Assembly (NCBI RefSeq): GCF_009467795.1
Contig: NZ_WIAX01000013.1
Coordinates: forward strand, 62,001-126,000
DNA from: Nesterenkonia halophila
GTDB lineage: Bacteria > Actinomycetota > Actinomycetes > Actinomycetales > Micrococcaceae
Direction: 5' to 3'
Length of the DNA: 64,000 bases
Position numbers and translations under genes: made by a program. Positions 19,958 to 62,737 of this stretch are shown here, piece by piece. The notes under the pieces were generated by a model that saw nothing but the letters and a program-made list of their open reading frames with translations, did no database searches and had not been told where the DNA came from. Each line of letters starts with the position of its first letter. The first letter of the stretch is position 1.

Positions 19958-19970
19958 ACAGCCCCGCACC

Positions 19971-20040
19971 CCGGGGGATGACTCGGCGGAACGTGTGGGA
20001 ATGCGTCGGCGTTCCCACACGTTCCGCCGAGTCATCCCCG
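19971..20040. repeat. Extragenic palindrome, family A, copy 1
   Basis: Arms 19974-20001 and 20012-20039 are a perfect 28-bp inverted repeat beginning GGGGATGACTCGGCGG and containing GTGTGGGAA. With one wobble pair and two more pairs the stem reaches 31 bp around the tetraloop GTCG. It lies between two genes on the plus strand. The second copy is at 49659-49718. It could act as a terminator here, but the second copy lies between divergent genes. Confidence 0.85.
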
Positions 20041-32167: not shown

Positions 32168-32266
32168 GCCCCTGCCGGGAGCACATCCGAGGGCTCGGCG
32201 TCGCCCCGCCGTCGGCGGTGGAGCAGCGCGCACCGGAGCTCCCGCACCCGCCGCCGAACCGGCGAC

Positions 32267-32324
32267 CCCCGAGTTTTCGCAGGATCACCGTGAAACAGCA
32301 CGGTGATCCTGCGAAAACTCGGGG
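32267..32324. repeat. Extragenic palindrome, family B, copy 1
   Basis: A perfect 26-bp inverted repeat: arms 32267-32292 (CCCCGAGTTTTCGCAGG...) and 32299-32324, loop AAACAG. It contains an AT-rich TTTTCGCAGGATCACC block that stands out from the surrounding DNA. A diverged copy is at 35369-35426. Confidence 0.85.
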
Positions 32325-32412
32325 ACCGCCGACGGGACACAGCCGGCGCCGACCCCGCCGGCGAGGTGTTCGGGCCGCACGCCGTCGGGCGGCGCCCGGT
32401 GCCGTCGGCCGC

Positions 32413-35319: not shown

Positions 35320-35368
35320 GCGCACCATGACGCGGCGCCGATCCGGCGCCCCGCCGTCGATCCATCGT

Positions 35369-35426
35369 CCCTGAGGATTCGCAGGATCATCGTGAGAGAG
35401 CGCGGTGATCCTGCGGGAACTCGGGG
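35369..35426. repeat. Extragenic palindrome, family B, copy 2
   Basis: Arms 35369-35394 and 35401-35426 pair at 19 of 26 positions around the loop AGAGAG. The core GCAGGATCA and outer CTCGGGG match copy 1. It lies between the converging helicase and LysR-type genes. Confidence 0.75.
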
Positions 35427-49636: not shown

Positions 49637-49658
49637 GCACCGATGCCCGCGCCGGAGG

Positions 49659-49718
49659 GACGACTCCGTGGCACGTGTGGGAATGGGGCCGCATTCCCAC
49701 ACGCGCCACAGAGTCATC
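49659..49718. repeat. Extragenic palindrome, family A, copy 2
   Basis: Arms 49659-49685 and 49692-49718 pair at 24 of 27 positions around the loop GGGCCG. The centre GTGTGGGAATG/CATTCCCACAC and the outer GATGACTC match copy 1 (19971-20040); the right arm matches copy 1 at 23 of 27 bases. It lies between two divergent genes, where a terminator would make no sense. Confidence 0.85.
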
Positions 49719-51317: not shown

Positions 51318-54300
51318 ATGCATCCTTTCGAGAATCCGTTCCGCCACAGCGCCGAGGCTCGTCGGCACGCTCTGCGCCACTTCCGCGCCGTCATCTTCGA
51401 CATGGACGGGGTGGTCACCGACACTGCGAGCGTGCACGCCGACGCCTGGAAGGAGCTCTTCGACGCCGCGCTGGAGGAGGTCGCCGGCGCCCCGCAGCCG
51501 GAGTTCACCCAGCAGGACTACCTGGACCACGTCGACGGACGGCCGCGCGAGGAGGGCGTGCGCGCGCTGTTGGCAGCCCGCGGCCTCGACGTCGCCGAGG
51601 GCACCGAGGACGACGGCCCCGACCAGCTGACGATCCGCGGGCTGGCGGCCCGCAAGCAGAGCTACTTCGAGAGCGTCATGGACCGCGACGGCGTCGGGGT
51701 CTTCGACACCACCGTCGACCTCGTCCGCCAGCTCGGCGAGGACGGCATCCCCACCGCCCTGGTGACTTCCTCGCGCAACGGCCGCACCGTGCTGCGCGCC
51801 GCCGGCCTGCTCGACGCGTTCACCGCGATCGTCGACGGCAGCGACGCCCTCGAGCTGGGCCTGCCCGGCAAGCCCGACCCGGCGATGTTCCGGCACGCCT
51901 CCACGCTGCTCGGCGTCGAGCCCGAGGACTCCATCGTCGTCGAGGACGCCGCCTCGGGCGTGCAGGCCGGCCACCGCGGCTCCTACGGCATGGTGGTCGG
52001 GCTGAACCGCGGCGACGACCCGCGGCGGCTCAAGGACGCCGGCGCCGACGTCGTCGTCGCCGATCTGTCGGTGATGAACCTGGCCACCCGCACCACCCGC
52101 CCCCACGACCCGGACTGGGTGCTGACCTACCACCATTTCGACCCCAAGGACGAGCCCACCCGGGAGGCGCTCTGCGCGCTGGCCAACGGCTACTGGGGCA
52201 CGCGCGGCAACTACCCGGGCACTTCGGCCGACGCCACCCACTACCCCGGCACCTACATCGCCGGGGTCTTCAACCGGCTGCACACCGACCTGATGGGCAA
52301 GACGGTCGAGACCGAGCACATGGTCAACATCCCGGACTGGACCCATCTGGAGGTCACCCCGGAGGCCGGCTCGGCGCTGCTGCCGGGCTCGCCCGAGCTC
52401 GTCGACTACCGCCAGGAGCTGGACATGCGCCGCGGACTGCTCACCCGCACCGCCCGCTACCAGGATCTGCACGGCCGCCGGACCCGGGTGGTCACCCGTC
52501 AGTTCCAGTCGATGGCCGGGACCCAGCTGGCCGCCATGGAGATGACGATCGAGGCGGAGAACTGGTCGGGCAACATCAACGTGCGCTCGATGACCGACGG
52601 CCGCGTCGCCAACCGCAACGTCGCCGCGGACCGCGAGCTGGCCGGCAACCACCTGGAGCCGGTCGACTCCCGCGAGGTCGACGGCGAGACGGTGCTGCTG
52701 GAGACGATGACCAACCAGTCGCAGGTGCGCGTCGCCCTGGCCACCCGCACCTCGGTGACCTCCGACGTCGCCGTCCCGCCGATGCGCCGGCCGGTCTCCG
52801 AGGGCGACCTGGTCGCCGGCCATGACATCTCGCTGCAGCTCGACGCCGGCGCCCCGGTGACGCTGGAGAAGATCGCCTCCGTGGCCAATTCCCACGACCA
52901 CGCGATCTCCACCGTCTGGCACGCCGCGGTCAAGCGGGTCCAGCGCGCGGACGCCTTCCGCACCATGCTGACCTTCCACGAGGAGATGTGGGGCGTGCTC
53001 TGGCGCCGCTTCGCCGCCTCCATCGGCTCGGAGCCCTCGCGGCAGCAGATGGCGTTGAACATGCACACCTTCCACGTGCTGCAGACCGCCTTCGGCGCCC
53101 GCCGCGAGCTCGACGCCGGCGTCGGCGCCCGCGGACTCCACGGCGAGGGCTACCGCGGGCATCTCTTCTGGGACGAGATGTTCATCTATCCGATGCTGAC
53201 CCTGCGGCGCCCGGAGATCACCCGCGGGCTGCTGATGTACCGCTACCGGCGGCTCGCCGAGGCCCGCGCCATGGCCGCGTCGGAGGGCCACGCCGGGGCG
53301 ATGTACCCCTGGCAGGCCGGCTCCGACGGCCGCGAGGAGACGCCCACCGAGCTGTGGAACCCGCGCAGCCAGATGTGGATGCCGGACAACTCGCACCGGC
53401 AGCGCCACGTCTCGCTCGCGATCGCCTACTCGGTGCTGCAGTACTTCGAGACCACGCAGGACTACACTTTCCTGGCCGACTACGGCGCGGAGATGCTGGT
53501 CGAGATCAGCCGCTTCTTCGTGTCGCTGACCAGCTACGACGACGAGGCCGACCGGTACGACATCGACGGCGTGATGGGGCCGGACGAGTACCACGACGGC
53601 TATCCGGAGACGCCGGGCTCGGGGGTGCGGGACAACGCCTACACCAACGTGCTGACCTCCTGGATGCTGCGCCACACCGCCCGTCTGGTCCGCGAGCTCG
53701 ACGGCCGCGACGACCCGCTCTCGGAGTGGCTGGACATCTTCGAGGACGAGCTCGACAGCTGGGAGCACATCAGCCGCCGGCTGCGCGTGCCGTTCCACGC
53801 CGACGGGGTGATCAGCCAGTTCGCCGGCTACGAGGACCTGCTGGAGTTCGACTGGGAGGGCTATAAGGCCCGGTACGGCAACATCGGCCGGCTCGACCTG
53901 ATCCTGCAGGCCGAGGGCGACGCGACCAACCGGTACAAGCTCTCCAAGCAGGCCGACGTGCTGATGCTCTGCTACCTGTTCTCCACGGACGAGCTGATCG
54001 AGGCCTTCGACCACATGGGCTACTCGGTCTCGGTGGAGGACGTCCGGGCGACGGTGCGCTACTACCTGGCCCGCTCCTCGCACGGCTCGACGCTGTCCCG
54101 GCTGGTGCACGGCTGGGTGGCGGCGAAGTTCGACCGCTCCAGCTCCTGGAACCTGTTCAAGGAGGCGCTGGAGGCCGACCTCTCCGACACCCAGGGCGGC
54201 ACCACCCGGGAGGGCATCCACCTGGGCGCGATGGCCGGCACCGTGGACATGGTGCTGCGCTGCTACGCCGGAGTGGAGACCCGCGCCGACGCGCTCTGGC

Positions 54301-54524
54301 TCCATCCGCTGCTGCCCGACGAGCTGCCCGAGGTCACCTTCCGGATGCGGTACCGCAACCAGCCGATCGTCGTCCACGTCGACCACCGGGAGGTCACGCT
54401 GAACCTCTCCGGCGGCTCCGCCGAGCCGATCGACGTCAACGTCGAGGGCAAGCACAAGCTGCTGCACCCCGGCGAGATCTGGGTCGTGGAGCTGGAGCAC
54501 TCCGCCCGCGCGCTGGCCGACTGA
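51318..54524 (+). CDS. Fusion of beta-phosphoglucomutase-like HAD domain and GH65 disaccharide phosphorylase
   Basis: A 1068-residue protein that could both split a disaccharide (trehalose, maltose or kojibiose) with phosphate and convert the resulting beta-glucose 1-phosphate to glucose 6-phosphate. Residues 20-260 are a HAD domain with beta-phosphoglucomutase marks: FDMDGVVTDT (nucleophile Asp28, acid Asp30), VHADAWKELF (His40, Trp44), TSSRNG, GKPDP and EDAASGVQAG. Residues about 265-1065 are GH65: ANGYWGTRGNYPG, RGLHGEGYRGHLFWDEMF-type active-site block (read as RGLHGEGYRGH and LFWDEMF), and the general acid Glu757 in MGPDEYHDGY. Phosphate-site segment SSHGSTLSRLVHGW is near the end. GAGG precedes the ATG. 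A HAD-GH65 layout also occurs in mycobacterial OtsB1-like proteins. Confidence 0.92.
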   Translation: MHPFENPFRHSAEARRHALRHFRAVIFDMDGVVTDTASVHADAWKELFDAALEEVAGAPQPEFTQQDYLDHVDGRPREEGVRALLAARGLDVAEGTEDDGPDQLTIRGLAARKQSYFESVMDRDGVGVFDTTVDLVRQLGEDGIPTALVTSSRNGRTVLRAAGLLDAFTAIVDGSDALELGLPGKPDPAMFRHASTLLGVEPEDSIVVEDAASGVQAGHRGSYGMVVGLNRGDDPRRLKDAGADVVVADLSVMNLATRTTRPHDPDWVLTYHHFDPKDEPTREALCALANGYWGTRGNYPGTSADATHYPGTYIAGVFNRLHTDLMGKTVETEHMVNIPDWTHLEVTPEAGSALLPGSPELVDYRQELDMRRGLLTRTARYQDLHGRRTRVVTRQFQSMAGTQLAAMEMTIEAENWSGNINVRSMTDGRVANRNVAADRELAGNHLEPVDSREVDGETVLLETMTNQSQVRVALATRTSVTSDVAVPPMRRPVSEGDLVAGHDISLQLDAGAPVTLEKIASVANSHDHAISTVWHAAVKRVQRADAFRTMLTFHEEMWGVLWRRFAASIGSEPSRQQMALNMHTFHVLQTAFGARRELDAGVGARGLHGEGYRGHLFWDEMFIYPMLTLRRPEITRGLLMYRYRRLAEARAMAASEGHAGAMYPWQAGSDGREETPTELWNPRSQMWMPDNSHRQRHVSLAIAYSVLQYFETTQDYTFLADYGAEMLVEISRFFVSLTSYDDEADRYDIDGVMGPDEYHDGYPETPGSGVRDNAYTNVLTSWMLRHTARLVRELDGRDDPLSEWLDIFEDELDSWEHISRRLRVPFHADGVISQFAGYEDLLEFDWEGYKARYGNIGRLDLILQAEGDATNRYKLSKQADVLMLCYLFSTDELIEAFDHMGYSVSVEDVRATVRYYLARSSHGSTLSRLVHGWVAAKFDRSSSWNLFKEALEADLSDTQGGTTREGIHLGAMAGTVDMVLRCYAGVETRADALWLHPLLPDELPEVTFRMRYRNQPIVVHVDHREVTLNLSGGSAEPIDVNVEGKHKLLHPGEIWVVELEHSARALAD

Positions 54525-54535
54525 GTCGGCGAGCA

Positions 54536-54621
54536 GCATCGAGCGGCCGCTCATGACGACGCCTGACCCGGGATGCGACGGAGTCGACGCCGAGATCTCG
54601 TCACGAGAGGCCACTCGATGC
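54536..54621. repeat. Extragenic palindrome, family C, copy 1 (86 bp)
   Basis: Ends GCATCGAG and CTCGATGC with inner arms GGCC...TGACGA and TCGTCA...GGCC. Lies between the GH65 fusion gene and the MarR gene, both on the plus strand. Copies 2 and 3 are at 57432-57517 and 62652-62737. Confidence 0.88.
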
Positions 54622-54684
54622 GGCGCGCGAATCCAGGGTGCCGCATCCCGCGCCACGAGGGCGCGGATCGTCTCGATTTCCGAT

Positions 54685-54703
54685 CCACTCGAGAATCGAG
54701 TGG
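54685..54703. promoter_or_regulatory. Operator of the MarR/MmpL operon
   Basis: CCACTCGAGAATCGAGTGG, perfect 8-bp arms around GAA; one further base pairs on each side. Ten bases before the MarR ATG, overlapping the possible -10 TGGAAT (54701-54706). Size and place suit binding by the MarR dimer itself. Confidence 0.7.
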
Positions 54704-54712
54704 AATGGACCT

Positions 54713-55273
54713 ATGCATGACGTCCCGCGCCCTCACGCTCCGGAGCCGCCCGACACGAGCCGGGCCGGCCGCCCGGCGACCCTCGCCGCTCTGGAAGCCG
54801 TCCGGCTGCTCGACGACTCCCTGGACCGGACGCACCATCGGCTGAAGTCCGCGGTGGAGATGAACGCCTCCGACGTCAGCACGCTCCGGATGCTGGTGAT
54901 CCGCGAGCGGCAGGGCACGCGGACCACGCCTCAGGACATCGCCGAGCATCTGCGGCTGAGCACGGCGACGGTGACGACGCTGCTGGACCGCCTCGCCGCG
55001 GCCGGCCACGTGCGGCGGACTCCGCATCCCGCCGACCGCCGGTCGCGGATCGTGGAGCTCACCGATCAGGCGCGGAGCACCTTCCTCCGGCACTTCGGCG
55101 GCGAGCTGCAGGCGATGCGCGAGGTCATCGAGGCCCGCGACGACGCGGACCTCGACGTCGTCACGGCCTTCCTCACCGACCTCGCCGCGGCCCTGGCGGA
55201 TCCTCAGGACCAGACACAGCCCACGCGGGCCGCGCGGCCGACGCAGGCGACATGGCCGGAGGAGGACGCATGA
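54713..55273 (+). CDS. MarR-family transcriptional regulator
   Basis: Predicted repressor of the exporter encoded next to it; 186 residues. The winged helix reads TTPQDIAEHLRLSTATVTTLLDRL with the wing RTPHPADRRSRIVELT, both standard for MarR. An N-terminal Pro/Arg-rich stretch (about 25 residues) precedes the dimerisation helix. The ATG at 54713 follows a perfect palindrome by ten bases, so the message may be almost leaderless; a second ATG in another frame at 54717 is ignored. The stop overlaps the mmpL-like start (ATGA). The C-terminus is Gln/Thr-rich (QDQTQPTRAARPTQAT). Confidence 0.9.
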   Translation: MHDVPRPHAPEPPDTSRAGRPATLAALEAVRLLDDSLDRTHHRLKSAVEMNASDVSTLRMLVIRERQGTRTTPQDIAEHLRLSTATVTTLLDRLAAAGHVRRTPHPADRRSRIVELTDQARSTFLRHFGGELQAMREVIEARDDADLDVVTAFLTDLAAALADPQDQTQPTRAARPTQATWPEEDA

Positions 55274-57408
55274 GCACCCCGACGCACGACGCGCGCACCC
55301 GATGGGCCCGACGGCTGCTGCCGCTGCTGGTGGTGCTCGCCTGGCTGGCCTGGACCGGAGCCGGCGGCACGACGTTCGGCGCGCTCTCCGAGGTCACCAG
55401 CAACGACCAGGTGACCTTCCTGCCGGCCGAGGCAGAGTCCACCCGGGCGGCGGAGCTGCAGCAGCAGTTCGCCGACTCCGACGCAGTGCCGACGACAGTG
55501 GTCGCCGAGCGGGACTCCGGGGCCTCCGACGGTCTGGAGGCCTCGGCCCGCGCCGACGCCGACGACGCCGCCGAGGCGCTGCGCGCGACGCCGGGGGTCA
55601 CCGAGGTGGCCGGCCCCGTCCCCTCCGAGGACGGCGCGGCCGTGCAGCTCACCGTGCTGCTGACGGAGCAGGCCGCCGACGAGGGCGCCGTCCAGGAGGT
55701 GCGCGCCGTCGCCGCCGAGCACTTCGACGCCTCCGCATGGACCGCGCATGTGACCGGCCCGGCGGCGCTCTCGGCCGACCTCTCCTCGGCGTTCGCCGGG
55801 ATCGACGGCATGCTGCTGCTGGTCGCCGTCGTCGCAGTGTTCGTCATCCTCATCCTGGTGTACCGCTCGCCGCTGCTGCCGCTGCTGGTGCTGCTCTCCG
55901 CGATCGGCGCGCTGTGCGCGGCGGTGACAGTGGTGCACCAGATGGCCCTGCAGGGCTGGATCGAGCTGAACGGCCAGGTGCAGGGGATCCTGTCGATCCT
56001 CGTCATCGGCGCCGCCACCGACTATGCGCTGCTGCTGGTCGCCCGTCACCGGGAGGAGCTGCGGCACACCGCCGATCGCCATGCGGCGCTGCGCACCGCC
56101 CTGCGACGCTCGACGCCGCCGATCCTCGCCTCCGGCGGCACCGTCGCGCTGGCGCTGCTGTGCCTGCTCTTCTCCGATCTGAACTCCAACCGGGCCCTCG
56201 GTCCGGTGGCCGCCGCCGGCATCGTCTTCGCCATGGCCTCGGCCCTGACCTTCCTGCCGGCGCTGCTGTCCCTGACGGGCCGAGGCATCTTCTGGCCGCG
56301 CATCCCCCGCGCCTGCGACGCCGCGGCGGACCGCGCGGACGCGCACGCCCGGACGGGCCTGTGGGCCCGGACGGCCGGATGGGTGCGCGCCCGCCCGCGT
56401 CCGATCTGGGCCGTGGTGCTGCTGGTCCTGATCGTCGGCGCGGCCGGCGTGACGCAGCTGCGCGCCGACGGCGTGGAACAGTCCGAGGTGGTGCTGACCG
56501 AGACCGACACGAAGGCCGGGCAGGCCATGCTGGCCGACCATTTCGACGCCGGGACCGGGGCGCCGACGAGCGTCTTCGCACCCGCCGACGAGGCCGAGTC
56601 CGCACTGCAGACCGTCCGCGGCGTCGACGGCGTCGCCGCGGCGCAGCTCGTCGCCGAAGGCGGGGCGCCGGCGCAGGAGGCCGCGCAGGCCCGCGTGGTC
56701 GACGACCAGGTGCAGATCTCGGCCACGCTGGAGGATGCGACGGACTCCCCCGCCGCCGAGTCCACCGTCCAGCAGCTGCGCGACGAGCTCGACGCCGTCG
56801 ACCAGGAGGCGCTGGTGGGCGGGACGACCGCCACGCAGCTGGACACCAATGCCACCGCCCAGCGCGACCTGATGGTGATCATCCCGGCGGTGCTGGTCTC
56901 CGTCGGGGCGATCCTGGTGCTGCTGCTGCGCTCGCTGGTGGCCCCGCTGCTGCTGGTGGCCGCGACCACGCTGTCCTTCCTGACCGCGCTGGGCGTCTCC
57001 GCGCTGGTGTTCAACCACGTCTTCGACTTCCCCGGCGCCGACCCCACCGTCCCGCTGTACGGCTTCATGTTCCTGGTGGCGCTGGGCGTGGACTACACAG
57101 TGTTCCTGATGACCCGCGCCCGCGAGGAGGCCCCGCATCGAGGGCCCCGTGAAGGCCTGCTCCACGCGCTGGTGGTCACCGGCGGGGTGATCACCTCGGC
57201 CGGCGTCGTGCTCGCGGCGACCTTCGCCGCGCTCGGGGTGCTGCCGCTGATGTTCATGGTGCAGTTGGCGTTCCTGGTGCCCCTCGGGGTGCTGCTGGAC
57301 ACCTTCGTCGTCCGCACGCTGCTGGTGCCCGCGCTCGGCGTCGATCTCGGCGGGCGCCTGTGGTGGCCCTCGCGGATCGGCCGGACGACGGGCGCAGAGC
57401 GCGTGTGA
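55270..57408 (+). CDS. MmpL-family RND transporter
   Basis: Exporter of 712 residues, probably for a lipid or drug. Twelve hydrophobic segments occur in two halves of one plus five plus one plus five, each half with a large extracytosolic domain, as in MMPL (PF03176). Key inner motifs are GAATDYALLLVARHREEL in the first half and ALGVDYTVFLMTRAREEA in the second: the DY pairs are thought to relay protons. The C-terminus ends soon after the last helix, so no extra domain is present. It is co-translated with the MarR gene and so probably induced by the MarR ligand. Confidence 0.92.
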   Translation: MSTPTHDARTRWARRLLPLLVVLAWLAWTGAGGTTFGALSEVTSNDQVTFLPAEAESTRAAELQQQFADSDAVPTTVVAERDSGASDGLEASARADADDAAEALRATPGVTEVAGPVPSEDGAAVQLTVLLTEQAADEGAVQEVRAVAAEHFDASAWTAHVTGPAALSADLSSAFAGIDGMLLLVAVVAVFVILILVYRSPLLPLLVLLSAIGALCAAVTVVHQMALQGWIELNGQVQGILSILVIGAATDYALLLVARHREELRHTADRHAALRTALRRSTPPILASGGTVALALLCLLFSDLNSNRALGPVAAAGIVFAMASALTFLPALLSLTGRGIFWPRIPRACDAAADRADAHARTGLWARTAGWVRARPRPIWAVVLLVLIVGAAGVTQLRADGVEQSEVVLTETDTKAGQAMLADHFDAGTGAPTSVFAPADEAESALQTVRGVDGVAAAQLVAEGGAPAQEAAQARVVDDQVQISATLEDATDSPAAESTVQQLRDELDAVDQEALVGGTTATQLDTNATAQRDLMVIIPAVLVSVGAILVLLLRSLVAPLLLVAATTLSFLTALGVSALVFNHVFDFPGADPTVPLYGFMFLVALGVDYTVFLMTRAREEAPHRGPREGLLHALVVTGGVITSAGVVLAATFAALGVLPLMFMVQLAFLVPLGVLLDTFVVRTLLVPALGVDLGGRLWWPSRIGRTTGAERV

Positions 57409-57431
57409 GGGAGCCTGCGTGAGGCCTGCCG

Positions 57432-57517
57432 GCATCGAGCGGCCGCTGATGACGACGTCTGAGCCGGGAGACGCCGGCGTCGACGCCGAGATCTCGTCAC
57501 CAGAGGCCACTCGATGC
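57432..57517. repeat. Extragenic palindrome, family C, copy 2 (86 bp)
   Basis: Same ends and length as copy 1; the two differ at a minority of positions. It lies between the converging mmpL-like and madM genes. The similarity to copy 1 goes on for about 55 bp to the right, into the 3' end of madM. Confidence 0.88.
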
Positions 57518-57543
57518 GGCGTTCGAAACCGCGTGCCCGCCTC

Positions 57544-58305
57544 TCACCCCACGAGGGCGCGCAGCGTCACGTAGAGCACGGAAGGCCCCAGCAGGCAGCC
57601 CACCCCGGTGAAGAAGGTCGCGGTCATCGCGCCGTAGGGCACCAGCCGCTCGTCGGTGGCGGCGAGGCCGCCGGCGACGCCGGAGGTGGTGCCCATCAGC
57701 CCGCCGAAGGCCATCGCCGCCTTCGGGTTGTTCAGCCGGATCAGCGGGGCGATCATCGGGGTCGCGACCATCACCACCACGGACTTCACCAGCCCGGCGG
57801 CCACCGACAGCGCGATGACGTCCGATCCGGCGCCCACGGCGGTGCCGGTGACCGGCCCGACGATGTAGGTCGCCGCGCCGGCGCCGATGGTCGCCATCGA
57901 CTCGGCGTCGGTGTAGCCGAAGGCCGCGGCGACGACGGCCCCGACGATGAACGAGACCACCACGCCCAGCAGGATCGACAGTACTCCGGTCGCCCCGCTG
58001 CGGCGGATGACGCTGAGGTCCACGCCGTAGGCGGTGGAGACGATGGCGAAGTCGCGCAGCATCGACCCGCCCAGGATGCCGAGCCCGCCGAAGATCGCCA
58101 GATCGGCCAGCCCGTCCTCGCCGCCGGTGGTCGCGCCGCCCCAGCCGGCGAGCGCCAGGCCGAGGATGATCGCGATGGCCGAGCCGTGCAGCCGGCCGCG
58201 GGTCAGGCTCCGCGACATCCAGCCGGAGACGAGCATCAGCACGCCGACGGCGGCGAAGGCGACCAGCAGATCGTTGTCCTCCAGCACTGAAACGATGGTG
58301 TCCAT
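57544..58305 (-). CDS. madM: Malonate transporter subunit MadM
   Basis: Large membrane subunit of the sodium-dependent malonate importer, 253 residues with about eight helices. The order with MadL and the Gly-rich stretches GGLGILGGSMLRDFAIVSTA, IGAGAATYIVGPVTGTAVGAG (read in halves) and FGGLMGTTSGVAGGLAATDE are typical. GTTSGVAGGLAATD near residue 205 is the most conserved. The ATG has GGAGG six bases upstream and lies one base after the madL stop. The last codons are inside a stretch shared with the flank of repeat C copy 1. Confidence 0.88.
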   Translation of the reverse strand: MDTIVSVLEDNDLLVAFAAVGVLMLVSGWMSRSLTRGRLHGSAIAIILGLALAGWGGATTGGEDGLADLAIFGGLGILGGSMLRDFAIVSTAYGVDLSVIRRSGATGVLSILLGVVVSFIVGAVVAAAFGYTDAESMATIGAGAATYIVGPVTGTAVGAGSDVIALSVAAGLVKSVVVMVATPMIAPLIRLNNPKAAMAFGGLMGTTSGVAGGLAATDERLVPYGAMTATFFTGVGCLLGPSVLYVTLRALVG

Positions 58306-58306
58306 C

Positions 58307-58735
58307 TCAGGCCTCCTTCGTCCGGGCGGATCCGGCCAGGCGGGCGTCGTCGCCCGCCTCGCGCGGCGGCAGCGGGTCGTCCGGAGGACCGATCCGCGCG
58401 AGCACCGGGACCAGCGCCGCGGCCGCGACCAGGGCGGCGAGTCCGGCGACGATCGCCATCGGCCCGCCGGTCAGCGCCTCGGCGACGTTCTGCGTCGAGG
58501 CCATCGCGACGACGATCGGGATGTACATCGAGCTCCAGAACATCACCCCGCGCTCCGAGGACTCGGGGAACAGGCCTCGGCGTCTCAGCCGGTCGGTGAC
58601 CAGCACCAGCAGGATCATCGCGAAGCCCACGCCGCCGACGTTGGCGTCGACTCCGACGGCGATGCCCAGTGCTTCGCCGATCAGCTCGCCGATCAGCAGG
58701 CACAGCGCCAACGCCGCCACTCCGTACACCACCAT
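58307..58735 (-). CDS. madL: Malonate transporter subunit MadL
   Basis: Small membrane subunit of the malonate importer: 142 residues with four helices. GVDANVGGVGFAMILLVLVTD and GVMFWSSMYIPIVVAMASTQNV (shown in part as FWSSMYIPIVVAMASTQNV) are the family marks. The C-terminal 35 residues (PPDDPLPPREAGDDARLAG) are a charged tail beyond the usual end. AGGAGA lies six bases before the ATG. It follows the decarboxylase/synthetase fusion gene by 72 bases in the same direction. Confidence 0.88.
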   Translation of the reverse strand: MVVYGVAALALCLLIGELIGEALGIAVGVDANVGGVGFAMILLVLVTDRLRRRGLFPESSERGVMFWSSMYIPIVVAMASTQNVAEALTGGPMAIVAGLAALVAAAALVPVLARIGPPDDPLPPREAGDDARLAGSARTKEA

Positions 58736-58807
58736 GGGTCATCTCCTGATTCGTCGTCGCGGGGCCTGCGGCCCCGTCGTGCAGTCGTTGCTCCGGCGGG
58801 GCACGCC

Positions 58808-61780
58808 TCAGACGCCGGCGCCGGTGAACAGCTCGGCGTAGCGGGTCCGCAGCTCGGCCTTCTGCACCTTCCCCATCACGTTGCGCGGCAGCGCCTCGAC
58901 CACGCGGACCGCCCGCGGCTGTTTGAACCGCGCCAGCCGTCCCTCCAGGGCGCCGACCACGCTCGCCTCGCTCGGGCTCCCGTCCGCGGCGGGCACGACG
59001 ACGGCGACGACGGTCTCGCCGAAGTCCGGATGCGGCACCCCGATCACCGCCGACTCGGCGACGTCCGGCTGGGCGTCGACCAGCTCCTCGATCTCCTTCG
59101 GATACACGTTGTAGCCGCCGGAGATGACCATGTCCTTGTCCCGGCCGACGATGGTCAGCGAGCCCTGCTCGTCGATGCGCCCCAGGTCGCCGGTGATGAA
59201 GAAGCCGTCCTCGCGGAACTCCGCGGCGGTCTTCTCCGGCATCCGCCAGTAGCCGGCGAAGACGTTGGGGCCGCGGACCTCGACGAGCCCGACCTCGCCG
59301 TCCGGCAGGGGCTCGCCGCTCTCCCGGTCCGTCACGCGGATCTCGACCCCGGGGAAGGGCACCCCGACAGTGCCGGGACGGCGGGCCCCGTCGTAGGGGT
59401 TGGTGGTGTTCATCCCGGTCTCGGTCATCCCGTAGCGCTCCAGGATGGCGTGGCCGGTGCGCTCGGAGAAGGCTTCGTGGTCGGCGGCGAGCAGCGGCGC
59501 CGAGCCGGAGACGAACAGCCGCATCGAGGCGCAGGCCTCGGCGGTGAACCGCTCGTCGGCGAGCAGCCGGGTGTAGAAGGTCGGCACCCCCATCAGCACT
59601 GTGGCCGCGGGAAGCCGTTCGAGGATCGCGTCGGCGTCGAAGCCGGGCAGCCAGTCCATGGCGGCCCCGGCGACCAGCGTCATGTTCGCCGCGACGAAGA
59701 GCCCGTGGATGTGGAAGATCGGCAGCGCGTGGATCAGCCGGTCCTCGGCGGTGAACTGCCAGGCCTCCAGCAGCGCGGCACAGTTGGAGGCGAGGTTGCC
59801 GTGGGTGAGCACCGCCCCCTTGGACCGGCCGGTGGTCCCGGAGGTGTAGAGGATCGCGGCGGGCTCGTCCTCGGCGACCTCGGCCGAGACCTCGCTGGTC
59901 TCCTCGCCGGCCAGCAGGCTGCCGCCGCCGGAGGCGTCGAGAGTCTCGACGACGAGGCCCGGCTCCCCCGCCCCTCCCGCGGTGCGCTCGGCGTGCTCCG
60001 CGGCGCGGTCCGGGGCGCAGACCAGCACCCGCGGCGCGGCGTCGTCGAGGAAGTAGTCCATCTCTGCACCGGTGTAGGCGGTGTTCAGCGGCAGATAGAC
60101 CCCGCCGACGCGCAGCGTCGCCAGATACAGCGCCAGCGCCTCGGGAGACTTCGGCACCTGGGCGGCCACCCGGTCGCCACGCTCGACGCCGTCGGCCAGC
60201 AGCGTCGCGGCGACCCGGCGGACGGTGTGCTCGAAGGCGCCGTAGCTGATCGCGGCCCCGTCGGGCAGGTGGAACAGCGTATGCTCCGGGCGGCGGGCGA
60301 CCTGGGCATCGAAGGAGCGGTGGATCGGGGTGACGGTCGCGGCCATGGCGGCGGGTCCTCTCGTGTCGTGGTCAGGGGTGCCGGCGTCGTCGGGGTCGGG
60401 GCGGCCGGCCTGCTCGAGCAGCGGGCCCTCGACGGCGACGGTCCGACGCCGGGCGAAGTCTTCATGGCGGCGCTCGAGGGCCGCCGGGTCGTAGCGGTAG
60501 GTGATCATCGCGCCGTAGGACTGCTCGAGCCCCGACGCCGAGTGGTCGGCCGGCCAGTGCAGCTGCCAGGCGGCCGCGCCGTTGCCCAGATGGAAGCGGG
60601 CGACCGGGTCGACCGGGCGGCCGTCGTCGCGACGCTCCTCGGTGATGTAGCGGGCCAGCACCGGCAGCAGCCGGTCGCGCAGCGCCGCAGTCTCCGCGGA
60701 CTGCTCGGGCCCCTCCGGTCCTACAGACTCGCCTCCCTGGTCAGCGCCGTCATGCGCACCGGACGGGCCCGACGTCGCGACGGATCCGCCCAGGTCGATG
60801 GCCAGCCGCAGCAGCTCGGGATCCTCCCGGCGCTCCAGCCAGCGGCGGAATCCGGGGATCGGCGAGAGCGTGACGAAGTGCTCCAGATGGGGGAGCTGCT
60901 GACCGACCTCCTCGATGACCTGCTTGATCAGCAGGCTGCCGAAGGAGATCCCGGCCAGGCCGGCCATCGCGGTGTTGATCGAATACAGCGCCGCCGTGTC
61001 GGCCTTCGACGGGCTCAGCGCCGGCCCCGGCTCGAGCAGCGGCCCGACCTCCCGCGGGATGCCGCGGACCAGGGCGACCTCGACGAAGATCAGCGGCACC
61101 TCGCCGGTGGCGGGGTGGAAGAAGGCGAAGCAGCGCCGGTCCTTGGGCTGCAGCCGACGCCGCAGCTCCGTCCGGTCGGCCATCGGGTGGACCTTCTCGC
61201 TGCGCAGCAGATGCTGGTGGAGCTCGCGGGGCGAATCCCAGGTGATCTCCTCCATGCGCAGGAAGCCGCGGTTGAACCAGGAGACCAGCAGGTGGTGGAA
61301 GTCGTGATCCAGCGGCCGCAGCGCCGGATGCTCGCGCATCAGCCGCAGCAGATCCGCGCGCATCTCCACCAGCGCCGTCGTGGCGTGCGGGGCGTGGTTC
61401 AACCGGCGCAGCAGCTGCTGGCGGGGAGGTTCGACGGCGTCGAAGAGCTCCGGCAGCGCGTGGCGCCGCTCCTCGCCGTCGGCGGCCTCCCACTGCTGGT
61501 ATGCGGTGCGCACCGCCGTCGGATCGACGTCGTAGTCCTCCAGGAGGTGGTGGAGGAACGTGCGCTTCGCCGCGTCGTCCAGCCGGCGGTACGCCGCCAG
61601 CGCCCGGGCGGCGACGGCGCGCCGGGAGGCCTCCCCGACCTCACCCATCAGCGCCTCGCAGGCGGCGAGCAGCTCCTCCAGCGGCTCCGGGTCCTCCGGG
61701 CGGGGATCCGCCGCGCCGCCGCGGCGCCGCCGCAGGATGCGGAAGAGGTCGGCCAGCAGCCAGCCGTCCTGTCGTGCCAT
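58808..61780 (-). CDS. Fused malonyl-CoA decarboxylase and malonyl-CoA synthetase (MatA-MatB)
   Basis: One uninterrupted frame of 990 residues that joins the two enzymes of malonate use: synthetase (malonate + CoA + ATP to malonyl-CoA) and decarboxylase (to acetyl-CoA). Residues 1-455 are the decarboxylase: helical N-terminal domain, then HFVTLSPIPGFRRWL with the catalytic Ser, and WPADHSASGLEQSYGAMITY with the His, ending YRYDPAALERRHEDFARRR. From residue 479 the sequence is MatB: ILYTSGTTGRSKGAVLTHG, YGMTETGMNTTNP, TGDLGRIDEQG and the C-terminal Lys in NVMGKVQKAEL. An ATG at 60346 with GAGAGGA nine bases upstream could also start MatB alone. GAGGAGGG precedes the main ATG. Confidence 0.93.
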   Translation of the reverse strand: MARQDGWLLADLFRILRRRRGGAADPRPEDPEPLEELLAACEALMGEVGEASRRAVAARALAAYRRLDDAAKRTFLHHLLEDYDVDPTAVRTAYQQWEAADGEERRHALPELFDAVEPPRQQLLRRLNHAPHATTALVEMRADLLRLMREHPALRPLDHDFHHLLVSWFNRGFLRMEEITWDSPRELHQHLLRSEKVHPMADRTELRRRLQPKDRRCFAFFHPATGEVPLIFVEVALVRGIPREVGPLLEPGPALSPSKADTAALYSINTAMAGLAGISFGSLLIKQVIEEVGQQLPHLEHFVTLSPIPGFRRWLERREDPELLRLAIDLGGSVATSGPSGAHDGADQGGESVGPEGPEQSAETAALRDRLLPVLARYITEERRDDGRPVDPVARFHLGNGAAAWQLHWPADHSASGLEQSYGAMITYRYDPAALERRHEDFARRRTVAVEGPLLEQAGRPDPDDAGTPDHDTRGPAAMAATVTPIHRSFDAQVARRPEHTLFHLPDGAAISYGAFEHTVRRVAATLLADGVERGDRVAAQVPKSPEALALYLATLRVGGVYLPLNTAYTGAEMDYFLDDAAPRVLVCAPDRAAEHAERTAGGAGEPGLVVETLDASGGGSLLAGEETSEVSAEVAEDEPAAILYTSGTTGRSKGAVLTHGNLASNCAALLEAWQFTAEDRLIHALPIFHIHGLFVAANMTLVAGAAMDWLPGFDADAILERLPAATVLMGVPTFYTRLLADERFTAEACASMRLFVSGSAPLLAADHEAFSERTGHAILERYGMTETGMNTTNPYDGARRPGTVGVPFPGVEIRVTDRESGEPLPDGEVGLVEVRGPNVFAGYWRMPEKTAAEFREDGFFITGDLGRIDEQGSLTIVGRDKDMVISGGYNVYPKEIEELVDAQPDVAESAVIGVPHPDFGETVVAVVVPAADGSPSEASVVGALEGRLARFKQPRAVRVVEALPRNVMGKVQKAELRTRYAELFTGAGV

Positions 61781-61821
61781 CGTCCCTCCTCATGCGTCGC
61801 GACGGTCGGATCCGTCATGTC

Positions 61822-61848
61822 ATGTACATCAGCTATCGTGATGTATAT
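61822..61848. promoter_or_regulatory. Operator between the malonate genes and the GntR gene
   Basis: ATGTACATCA (61822-61831), seven bases, TGATGTATAT (61839-61848): 9 of 10 positions pair. It is the most AT-rich spot in the region and lies between the divergent matAB-type and gntR-type genes, as expected of a MatR site. Confidence 0.65.
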
Positions 61849-61936
61849 AACAACGCACTGTACCGCACCGCAGGTGATGCGCACCACACCCCGGAGCGGA
61901 CGGAGCGGTCGACTACGCTGAGCCGCGGAGGTGGAC

Positions 61937-62611
61937 ATGGCACGGATCCCGGAGTCGCAGCGCGTCCGCGACGCGCTGGAGAACGCGATCGTCGACGGGC
62001 GGCACCGCCCCGGCGAGCGCCTGGACCCGACCCGGCTCGAGGAGGAGTTCGGCTGCTCGCGCACCCCGGTGCGCGAGGCGCTGCAGGCCCTGGAGCGTTC
62101 GGGACTCGTCCGGATCCGGCCCAAGCAGGGCACCTACGTCACCGAGCTGGGCCTCTCCGAGCTCGCCGAGCGCTTCGAGGTCATGGCCGAGCTCGAGGGC
62201 ATGGCCGCCCGCCTGGCCGCCCGCCGCATCGGGATCGCGGAGCTCGCCGCCCTCGACGAGGCGGTGGCCGAATGCGCCCGGCACGCCGAGGCCGGCGACG
62301 CCGACGGCTACTACTACGCCAACGCCCGCTTCCACGCCACGATCTACGACTCCTGCGGCAACGAGCACCTCCGCCAGCAGGTCCACCAGCTCAAGCGCAC
62401 GTTGCAGCCCTACCGGCGGCTGCAGCTGCGCGTGCCGGACCGGATGCGCCGTTCGCTGGCCGAGCACCGCACCATCGCCGCCGCCGTGCGCGCCGGCGAC
62501 GCCGGCACCGCCGAGGACGCCGCCCGCGAGCACGTGCTGGTCCAGGTCACCGAGTTCAGTCAGCTGGTGACCACCTGGCGCGCCGTGAGCTCGCCGGCCT
62601 CGGCGGAGTGA
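61937..62611 (+). CDS. GntR-family regulator (FadR/FCD group), MatR-like
   Basis: Predicted malonate-responsive repressor of the divergent malonate genes, 224 residues. The N-terminal winged helix reads RPGERLDPTRLEEEFGCSRT followed by PVREALQALERSGLVRIRPKQGTYV; the FCD ligand domain (about 80-215) has metal/ligand-type residues in NARFHATIYDSCGN and LAEHRTIAAAVRAGD. ATG at 61937 is chosen because GGAGGT lies four bases upstream; GTG at 61931 is the alternative. A -10 box TACGCT is at 61914-61919. The position opposite the decarboxylase/synthetase gene matches rhizobial matR-matABC. Confidence 0.88.
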   Translation: MARIPESQRVRDALENAIVDGRHRPGERLDPTRLEEEFGCSRTPVREALQALERSGLVRIRPKQGTYVTELGLSELAERFEVMAELEGMAARLAARRIGIAELAALDEAVAECARHAEAGDADGYYYANARFHATIYDSCGNEHLRQQVHQLKRTLQPYRRLQLRVPDRMRRSLAEHRTIAAAVRAGDAGTAEDAAREHVLVQVTEFSQLVTTWRAVSSPASAE

Positions 62612-62651
62612 CCGGCCGCGACCGCACCGCCGGCTCGGCGCGACCCCGGCC

Positions 62652-62737
62652 GCATCGAGCGGTCACGTGTGACGACATCTGTCCCGCGATACGGCGGAAT
62701 CCAGGCGGAGATCCCGTCACACGTGACCACTCGACGC
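62652..62737. repeat. Extragenic palindrome, family C, copy 3 (86 bp)
   Basis: Same length as the other two copies. Inner arms GGTCACGTGTGACG and CGTCACACGTGACC are a perfect 14-bp match although their sequence differs from copies 1 and 2, so both arms have changed together. It lies between two plus-strand genes. Confidence 0.85.

Follow-up and report, generated by a model that had tools for sequence, protein, structure and literature searches.

As far as we know, extragenic palindromes without a known origin occur in many bacterial genomes. The stretch of DNA analysed here, 64,000 nucleotides long and referred to as the window (G000:C24:62001-126000), comes from a 2.19-Mb assembly that is 65.5% complete (G000, the own genome). 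It holds three such palindromes of identical length, named c1, c2 and c3, which raise the question of what these elements are and by what means they have been dispersed. Their positions in the window are as follows.

54536..54621, + strand: c1, 86-bp palindrome in a tandem gap; the stop codon of the + strand gene 51318-54524 is 11 nt before it
57432..57517, + strand: c2, 86-bp palindrome in a convergent gap between the genes 55270-57408 (+) and 57544-58305 (-)
62652..62737, + strand: c3, 86-bp palindrome in a tandem gap, 40 nt past the stop codon of the + strand gene 61931-62611

Each copy is 86 nt long and all three share the middle GAGATC(T/C)CGTCA. The preliminary description had given three 86-nt copies with their positions, ends and middle, all of which were exact on re-check, and the same-direction and converging gaps that it named were found to be tandem (c1 and c3) and convergent (c2). 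The genes on either side of c2 are MMPL-like (55270-57408) and DUF979-like (57544-58305) and the gene upstream of c3 is GntR-like, with all three names assigned by eye. When folded against dinucleotide shuffles, c1-c3 had z values of -4.2 to -8.0 over both strands and none of 200 shuffles was equally stable. The inner arms of c3 differ from those of c1 and c2 yet are perfectly paired, as had been claimed, and the inner arms of c1 and c2 contain a few mismatches. A C.A mismatch at pair 9:78, corresponding to G.T on the opposite strand, is common to all three copies. A blastn search of the own genome with c1 as query recovered c3 (E = 5e-11), and a search of the window against Rfam gave no matches above the gathering score.

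Copy number and covariation

A search for further copies, as proposed in the preliminary description, was carried out using a covariance model built from eight own-genome copies, and it identified 20 distinct places in the own genome (E <= 0.01). This first model matches seven of the 58 genomes, the own genome included, with many matches in G003, G008 and G024 and few or weak matches in G026, G029 and G052. A second model identified 24 distinct places in G000, one of them only 46 nt long, and 23 in G003 (E <= 0.05), and it matches 18 of the 30 genomes of the genus Nesterenkonia (some barely within E 0.01). Copy numbers in three relatives are similar to the 24 of the own genome.

Covariation was assessed in an ungapped alignment of 47 copies from four genomes, which were selected for a length of 86 nt; most of the remaining copies measure 85-87 or 74-76 nt. 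The preliminary description had allowed that the arms might fail to co-vary when more copies were aligned, but 20 of the 29 pairs change on both sides. Cells with both-sided changes number 145, against a mean of 65.5 in shuffled alignments, and no shuffle out of 500 reached 145. Paired cells make up 85% of the total in the 47 copies, compared with 28-44% when the partner is slid. A compensated change is also seen between the orthologous c1 copies of G000 and G024, at pair 17:70 (C-G versus G-C). These three palindromes are members of a dispersed, structure-conserving family and not a product of chance, and the structural conservation that the inner arms of c3 had pointed to is backed by the covariation across the 47 copies. 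A strand-specific RNA reading was rejected because G.U is not in excess of A.C among the non-Watson-Crick cells (83 and 74, respectively, with no strand favoured). The constraint, or a correction of the palindrome by template switching, accordingly works at the level of DNA or on both strands.

Genomic placement

Placement was determined for 75 of the 77 listed hits, which come from six genomes, using genes from a gene caller trained on the window; two hits were dropped, L054 (weak and from another genus) and L048:1593 (a different palindrome). None of the 75 copies lies inside a gene, with some overlapping a gene end by at most 31 nt, and 68 adjoin the 3' end of a gene. Stop codons are at a median distance of 16 nt from the copies and start codons at one of 67 nt. 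Convergent gaps hold 26 of the copies, tandem gaps 42 and divergent gaps seven, while 2672 of the 6633 bp of intergenic DNA in the window lie in divergent gaps. The two orientations are equally frequent in tandem gaps (21 vs 21). A T-tract, defined as at least five T in 10 nt, was present in none of the 176 outer flanks.

In the flanks of 88 elements, the roughly 9 nt before the element are C-rich and the roughly 9 nt after it are G-rich (roughly 40-60% each), which may reflect either a target preference or a loose continuation of the palindrome beyond its ends.

Presence, absence and local spread

c2 and c3 are absent from the corresponding gaps of G024, G003 and G008, while c1 is present in G024. 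This gap comparison covered genomes with anchors on both sides; G005, G011, G017, G018, G021 and G023, where anchors are missing on one or both sides, were left out. At the c2 site of the relatives the aligned genes are at most 5 nt apart. Flanks are too divergent between species for a target-site duplication or a clean insertion boundary to be defined in this comparison.

Copies less than 15 kb apart resemble one another more than other copies do in G003 (similarity 0.83 vs 0.69) and G000 (0.74 vs 0.64), with 0/5000 permutations in each case, and in G008 (0.85 vs 0.76; 2/5000 permutations). The greater likeness of near pairs was not clear in G024 (290/5000 permutations). c1 and c2 have a right flank in common for 54 nt, with 39/54 positions identical compared with 16.6 +- 3.8 across all right-flank pairs. 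Flank likeness at this level was otherwise seen only between orthologous copies, and the shared 54 nt take in the end of the gene that is native to the c2 site. This suggests that the c2 site was the source of c1 before G024 split off and that G024 afterwards lost its c2. Given this shared flank, the view that c2 is a recent gain in the own lineage was dropped: the presence and absence of c2 between species stands, but the former direction does not.

A 5-kb segment elsewhere on the same contig (L167; own C24:268774-273930) carries three genes, LacI-, MFS- and rhamnosidase-like (named by eye), between elements at 268774 and 273845. G024 has a single element at that place.

Nuclease genes between palindromes

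On contig C29 of the own genome, two copies 1.2 kb apart enclose a single gene, which encodes a nuclease. At the corresponding site G024 has a solo palindrome, and both palindrome and gene are missing from G003. The genes found between paired copies on own C29, in G003, on C17 and C22 of G024 and on C68 of G008 belong to one family, and a distinct palindrome subfamily accompanies each of G024 C17, G024 C22, own C29 and the G003/G008 pair. When nine regions between neighbouring copies were translated, four contained the nuclease and five contained other genes alone. The solo palindrome, on C40 of G024, matches E1 at 5/10 and E2 at 5/10 informative sites; it is E1-like on the left and E2-like on the right apart from two sites that break this order, a pattern that is suggestive only.

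A profile of the nuclease gave 94 matches in 28 of the 30 Nesterenkonia genomes, some of which are fragments of one broken gene, and with the gene this widespread its presence by itself explains nothing. Bracketing was scored at 50 loci out of the 94 matches. The same palindrome occurs on both sides of 25 of the 50 nuclease genes but only four of 310 control genes (Fisher p 1e-20), and those four control genes sit between copies of these same palindrome families. At the threshold used, the other 25 loci show no such matching pair of palindromes; among the misses is C77 of G024 (L230), whose second palindrome is 321 nt away and whose two sides agree with 450-nt flanks. Many nuclease genes have a palindrome approximately 50-170 nt upstream. 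At the level of the order (Micrococcales), the profile matches at least 113 of the 149 sampled genomes. Among the matches listed there, 12 of 28 new loci have the same palindrome on both sides, a count that has no matched control, and 16 do not at the threshold used.

Nuclease copies broken by stop codons or fragmented were observed in G002, G003, G015, G016, G018, G021, G023, G024 and G026, as expected for genes under turnover.

Domains of the bracketed protein

The product of the bracketed gene is approximately 310-340 residues long, with an AbiEi-like N-terminal half and a C-terminal endonuclease domain of the Vsr/EDxHD type. Pfam matches, all below the curated cut-off, were REase_MTES_1575 in 8/8 members, AbiEi_1 in three, DUF559 in two and AbiEi_4 in one. 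The PADLOC AbiEi profiles gave best E values of 1e-6 to 1e-15 across four proteins. A sequence search of the PDB returned three weak chains (E 0.05-0.19), which were not used. PMC3710099 describes MTES_1575 as a fusion of HEPN with a REase domain of the Vsr type.

The nuclease was modelled using AlphaFold (mean pLDDT 85, pTM 0.80). The C-terminal part of the predicted model aligns with I-Bth0305I (Z 12.2 over 96 residues) and with Vsr (Z 10.2 over 99 residues), and the N-terminal part with AbiEi (Z 8.5 over 170 residues). In 45 proteins longer than 280 aa, an E, a D and an H are each conserved in 45/45 and a further D in 43/45. These are putative catalytic residues, and their assignment to the EDxHD motif was made in this analysis. 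Judging from the predicted fold, the bracketed protein combines an AbiEi-like domain with an EDxHD endonuclease that resembles Vsr and I-Bth0305I, and site-specific cleavage is predicted.

Co-divergence and further palindrome families

Palindrome similarity tracks nuclease identity (Mantel r 0.70; 0/5000). The test used 33 of the 50 loci, those with a better hairpin score of at least 14, and loci scoring below 17 were retained only if both sides agreed. Orthologous loci contribute to this result, and r is 0.51 for nuclease pairs with less than 80% identity. We also compared 78 non-flanking elements from four genomes with the palindromes of 42 chosen loci out of the 50. For 37 elements the best-matching palindrome neighbours a nuclease gene in the element's own genome, for 20 one in the sister genome, and for 21 one outside both. 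Own-genome copies of the TGAGTGGTCA type are without a clear cognate nuclease among the loci compared. Two further families of palindromes are found in the window.

19970..20039, no strand assigned: family B palindrome, copy 1 (local alignment score 41 with L230)
49652..49718, no strand assigned: family B palindrome, copy 2 (score 36 with L230)
32260-32331, no strand assigned: family A palindrome with CGAGTTTTCGCAGGATCACCGTG arms
35367-35426, no strand assigned: family A palindrome with CGAGTTTTCGCAGGATCACCGTG arms

Family B, which serves as an independent check, is separate from that of c1-c3 and resembles the palindromes that flank a different nuclease on C77 of the sister genome G024 (L230). 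Family A is a different family again, for which no cognate nuclease was seen in the loci compared. Loci on C18, C10 and C24 of the own genome, and loci of G024, contain sequence similar to family A.

An independent route to the nuclease came from the one scan that covered every genome, made with a DNA pattern alone before the nuclease was known; it had yielded 28 stretches, including four in Nesterenkonia PF2B19. Three of the 28 carry the nuclease at E <= 1e-4. In the Propionibacteriaceae P6A17 stretch the nuclease (E 2.5e-5) is enclosed by two copies of one palindrome, in that of Humibacillus xanthopallidus it has inverted repeat arrays on both sides, and in that of an uncultured bin it adjoins short repeats.

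Direct-repeat arrays, many with a 32-bp period, were observed with GTCGAGTGGCCAC in Humibacillus loci among L109-L136, and at one of these (L127) the GTCGAGTGGCCAC arrays are inverted around the same nuclease family. The Humibacillus repeats were rejected as examples of the 86-bp element, with model R1 scoring nothing (0/5 genomes), and they are related through the half-site and the nuclease rather than through the 86-bp element.

Alternative explanations

The preliminary description had raised the possibility of a REP-like or RAYT-mobilised element. Its REP-like part holds, in that the elements are palindromic, extragenic, dispersed, hairpin-forming and structure-conserving. That they are REP or REPIN elements mobilised by a RAYT (a Y1 tyrosine transposase) is extremely improbable. 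The check for a Y1_Tnp gene found PF01797 in three of the 58 genomes but in none of the four element-rich ones (G000, G003, G008 and G024), of which G003 is a single contig and G000 is 65.5% complete, and the elements have the ends GCATCGAG...CTCGATGC and no GTAG tag. RAYT mobilisation is largely refuted for G003, G008 and G024. We give only slightly more credence to the palindromes being MITEs whose terminal inverted repeats match those of a DDE transposon. Conserved inverted ends and a small, near-constant size would be expected of MITEs, but 42 of the 48 exact occurrences of the half-site TCGAGTGGCCRC in four genomes are within elements, and the six solitary occurrences are fewer than those of a reversed-pattern control (5-15 per strand per genome). 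With no excess of solitary TCGAGTGGCCRC, there is no sign of a longer element with these ends in the four genomes. Furthermore, c2 is without a match in phages or plasmids and the core pattern is without a match in viral contigs. A DNA-uptake-like signal was rejected on the same count, the half-site being mostly confined to elements (42/48 in four genomes). Integron attC motifs have terminal RYYYAAC and GTTRRRY boxes, which are absent from the consensus of the 47 aligned 86-nt copies.

Two further explanations do without nuclease-driven movement. The palindromes could be bidirectional terminators or stabilisers of mRNA 3' ends whose sequence is shared via gene conversion, with the nuclease hitch-hiking. 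The abundance of copies at gene 3' ends (68/75, a median of 16 nt from the stop codon), their scarcity in divergent gaps (7/75, although 2672 of the 6633 intergenic bp of the window lie there), the absence of orientation bias in tandem gaps and the near-equal numbers of G.U and A.C cells, as in a device that works both ways, would all suit such a role. We nevertheless regard it as unlikely: the outer flanks are devoid of T-tracts (0/176), a terminator needs no shared sequence, near-constant length or bracketed nuclease, and the genes of the relatives at the c2 site are so close together (<=5 nt) that the hairpin would not fit. It is less probable still that the palindromes are sites at which an AbiEi-like protein regulates its own and other genes, the nuclease serving in defence or toxicity. 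The AbiEi fold and profiles of the protein and the palindrome upstream of many nuclease genes are in its favour, and an excerpt of PMC7319586 reports that AbiEi binds inverted repeats for autoregulation. The dispersed copies, however, are behind genes and not at promoters (median distances of 16 nt to stop codons and 67 nt to start codons), and an operator would need neither a matching copy behind the gene nor gain and loss between species. Terminators spread by gene conversion and AbiEi operator sites are both possible, but they explain less than a REPtron-like element does.

A probable REPtron-like element with an endonuclease

We consider it probable that c1-c3 are non-autonomous, dispersed copies of a selfish element that resembles a REPtron and has an endonuclease as its dedicated enzyme. 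This reading follows from the Y1 transposases not being found, from there being no excess of solitary ends, and from an endonuclease that is bracketed by the palindromes and diverges together with them. Against it, the palindromes could owe their dispersal to ordinary gene conversion, the nuclease simply being carried with them. The full form of the REPtron-like element would be palindrome, nuclease gene, palindrome. We infer that the nuclease binds and cuts the palindromes and brings about their copying: the AbiEi-like part would recognise the arms conserved in the palindrome family that goes with it, and the nuclease domain would nick or cut at the recognised palindrome. Repair or strand transfer would then copy the palindrome, at times together with adjoining DNA or the entire cassette, and in this way the nuclease would spread the palindromes. 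New copies would land in gaps just behind genes, preferentially nearby, and a single solo palindrome could remain after two copies recombine. The nuclease diverges in step with its palindrome, so that several independent families are present in one genome.

ERIC, Correia-type and other small intergenic repeats are, like the elements described here, short imperfect palindromes located between genes; we know of no dedicated gene bracketed by ERIC. The closest parallel is with the REPtrons formed by REPs and RAYTs, which likewise combine dispersed extragenic palindromes, an enzyme gene bracketed by its own palindrome, and divergence of enzyme and palindrome together. The enzyme here differs in being an AbiEi - Vsr/EDxHD-like endonuclease and not an HUH/Y1 transposase, and the GTAG tag is lacking. 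The palindromes are mostly 75 or 86 bp long, whereas REPs are given as 20-40 bp in an excerpt of PMC3733652. With the EDxHD / Vsr-like homing endonucleases such as I-Bth0305I (PDB 3r3p) and with Vsr (1cw0, 1vsr) the protein shares the predicted fold of the catalytic domain and the conserved E, D, H and D, but here the domain is accompanied by an AbiEi-like N-terminal half and its gene is bracketed by palindromes. That N-terminal half is the part in common with the AbiEi antitoxin of the type IV AbiE toxin-antitoxin system (PDB 6y8q; Rv2827c, 1zel), from which the protein differs by its fusion to a nuclease domain.

In the open-licence PubMed Central literature, we found no description of such palindromes linked to an AbiEi-Vsr/EDxHD nuclease, and none that ties them to actinobacteria, RAYT, DUF559, AbiEi or Vsr. 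The enzyme had no earlier connection with repeats of this kind in that literature, and the pairing points to a type of selfish DNA that has gone unrecognised. We see an even chance that this is a form of mobile DNA found across the Micrococcales, with an AbiEi-guided Vsr/EDxHD endonuclease as its sole mobility enzyme, which would carry its palindrome, and occasionally the entire cassette, to the ends of genes through cutting followed by repair, and with enzyme and palindrome as co-evolving, independent pairs, several per genome. It would then be a counterpart of REP/RAYT that relies on an enzyme other than a transposase. If the pairing is functional, it would provide a cause for these repeats and a function for a large, little-studied nuclease family, and it would constitute a second, independent route by which bacterial palindromes spread.
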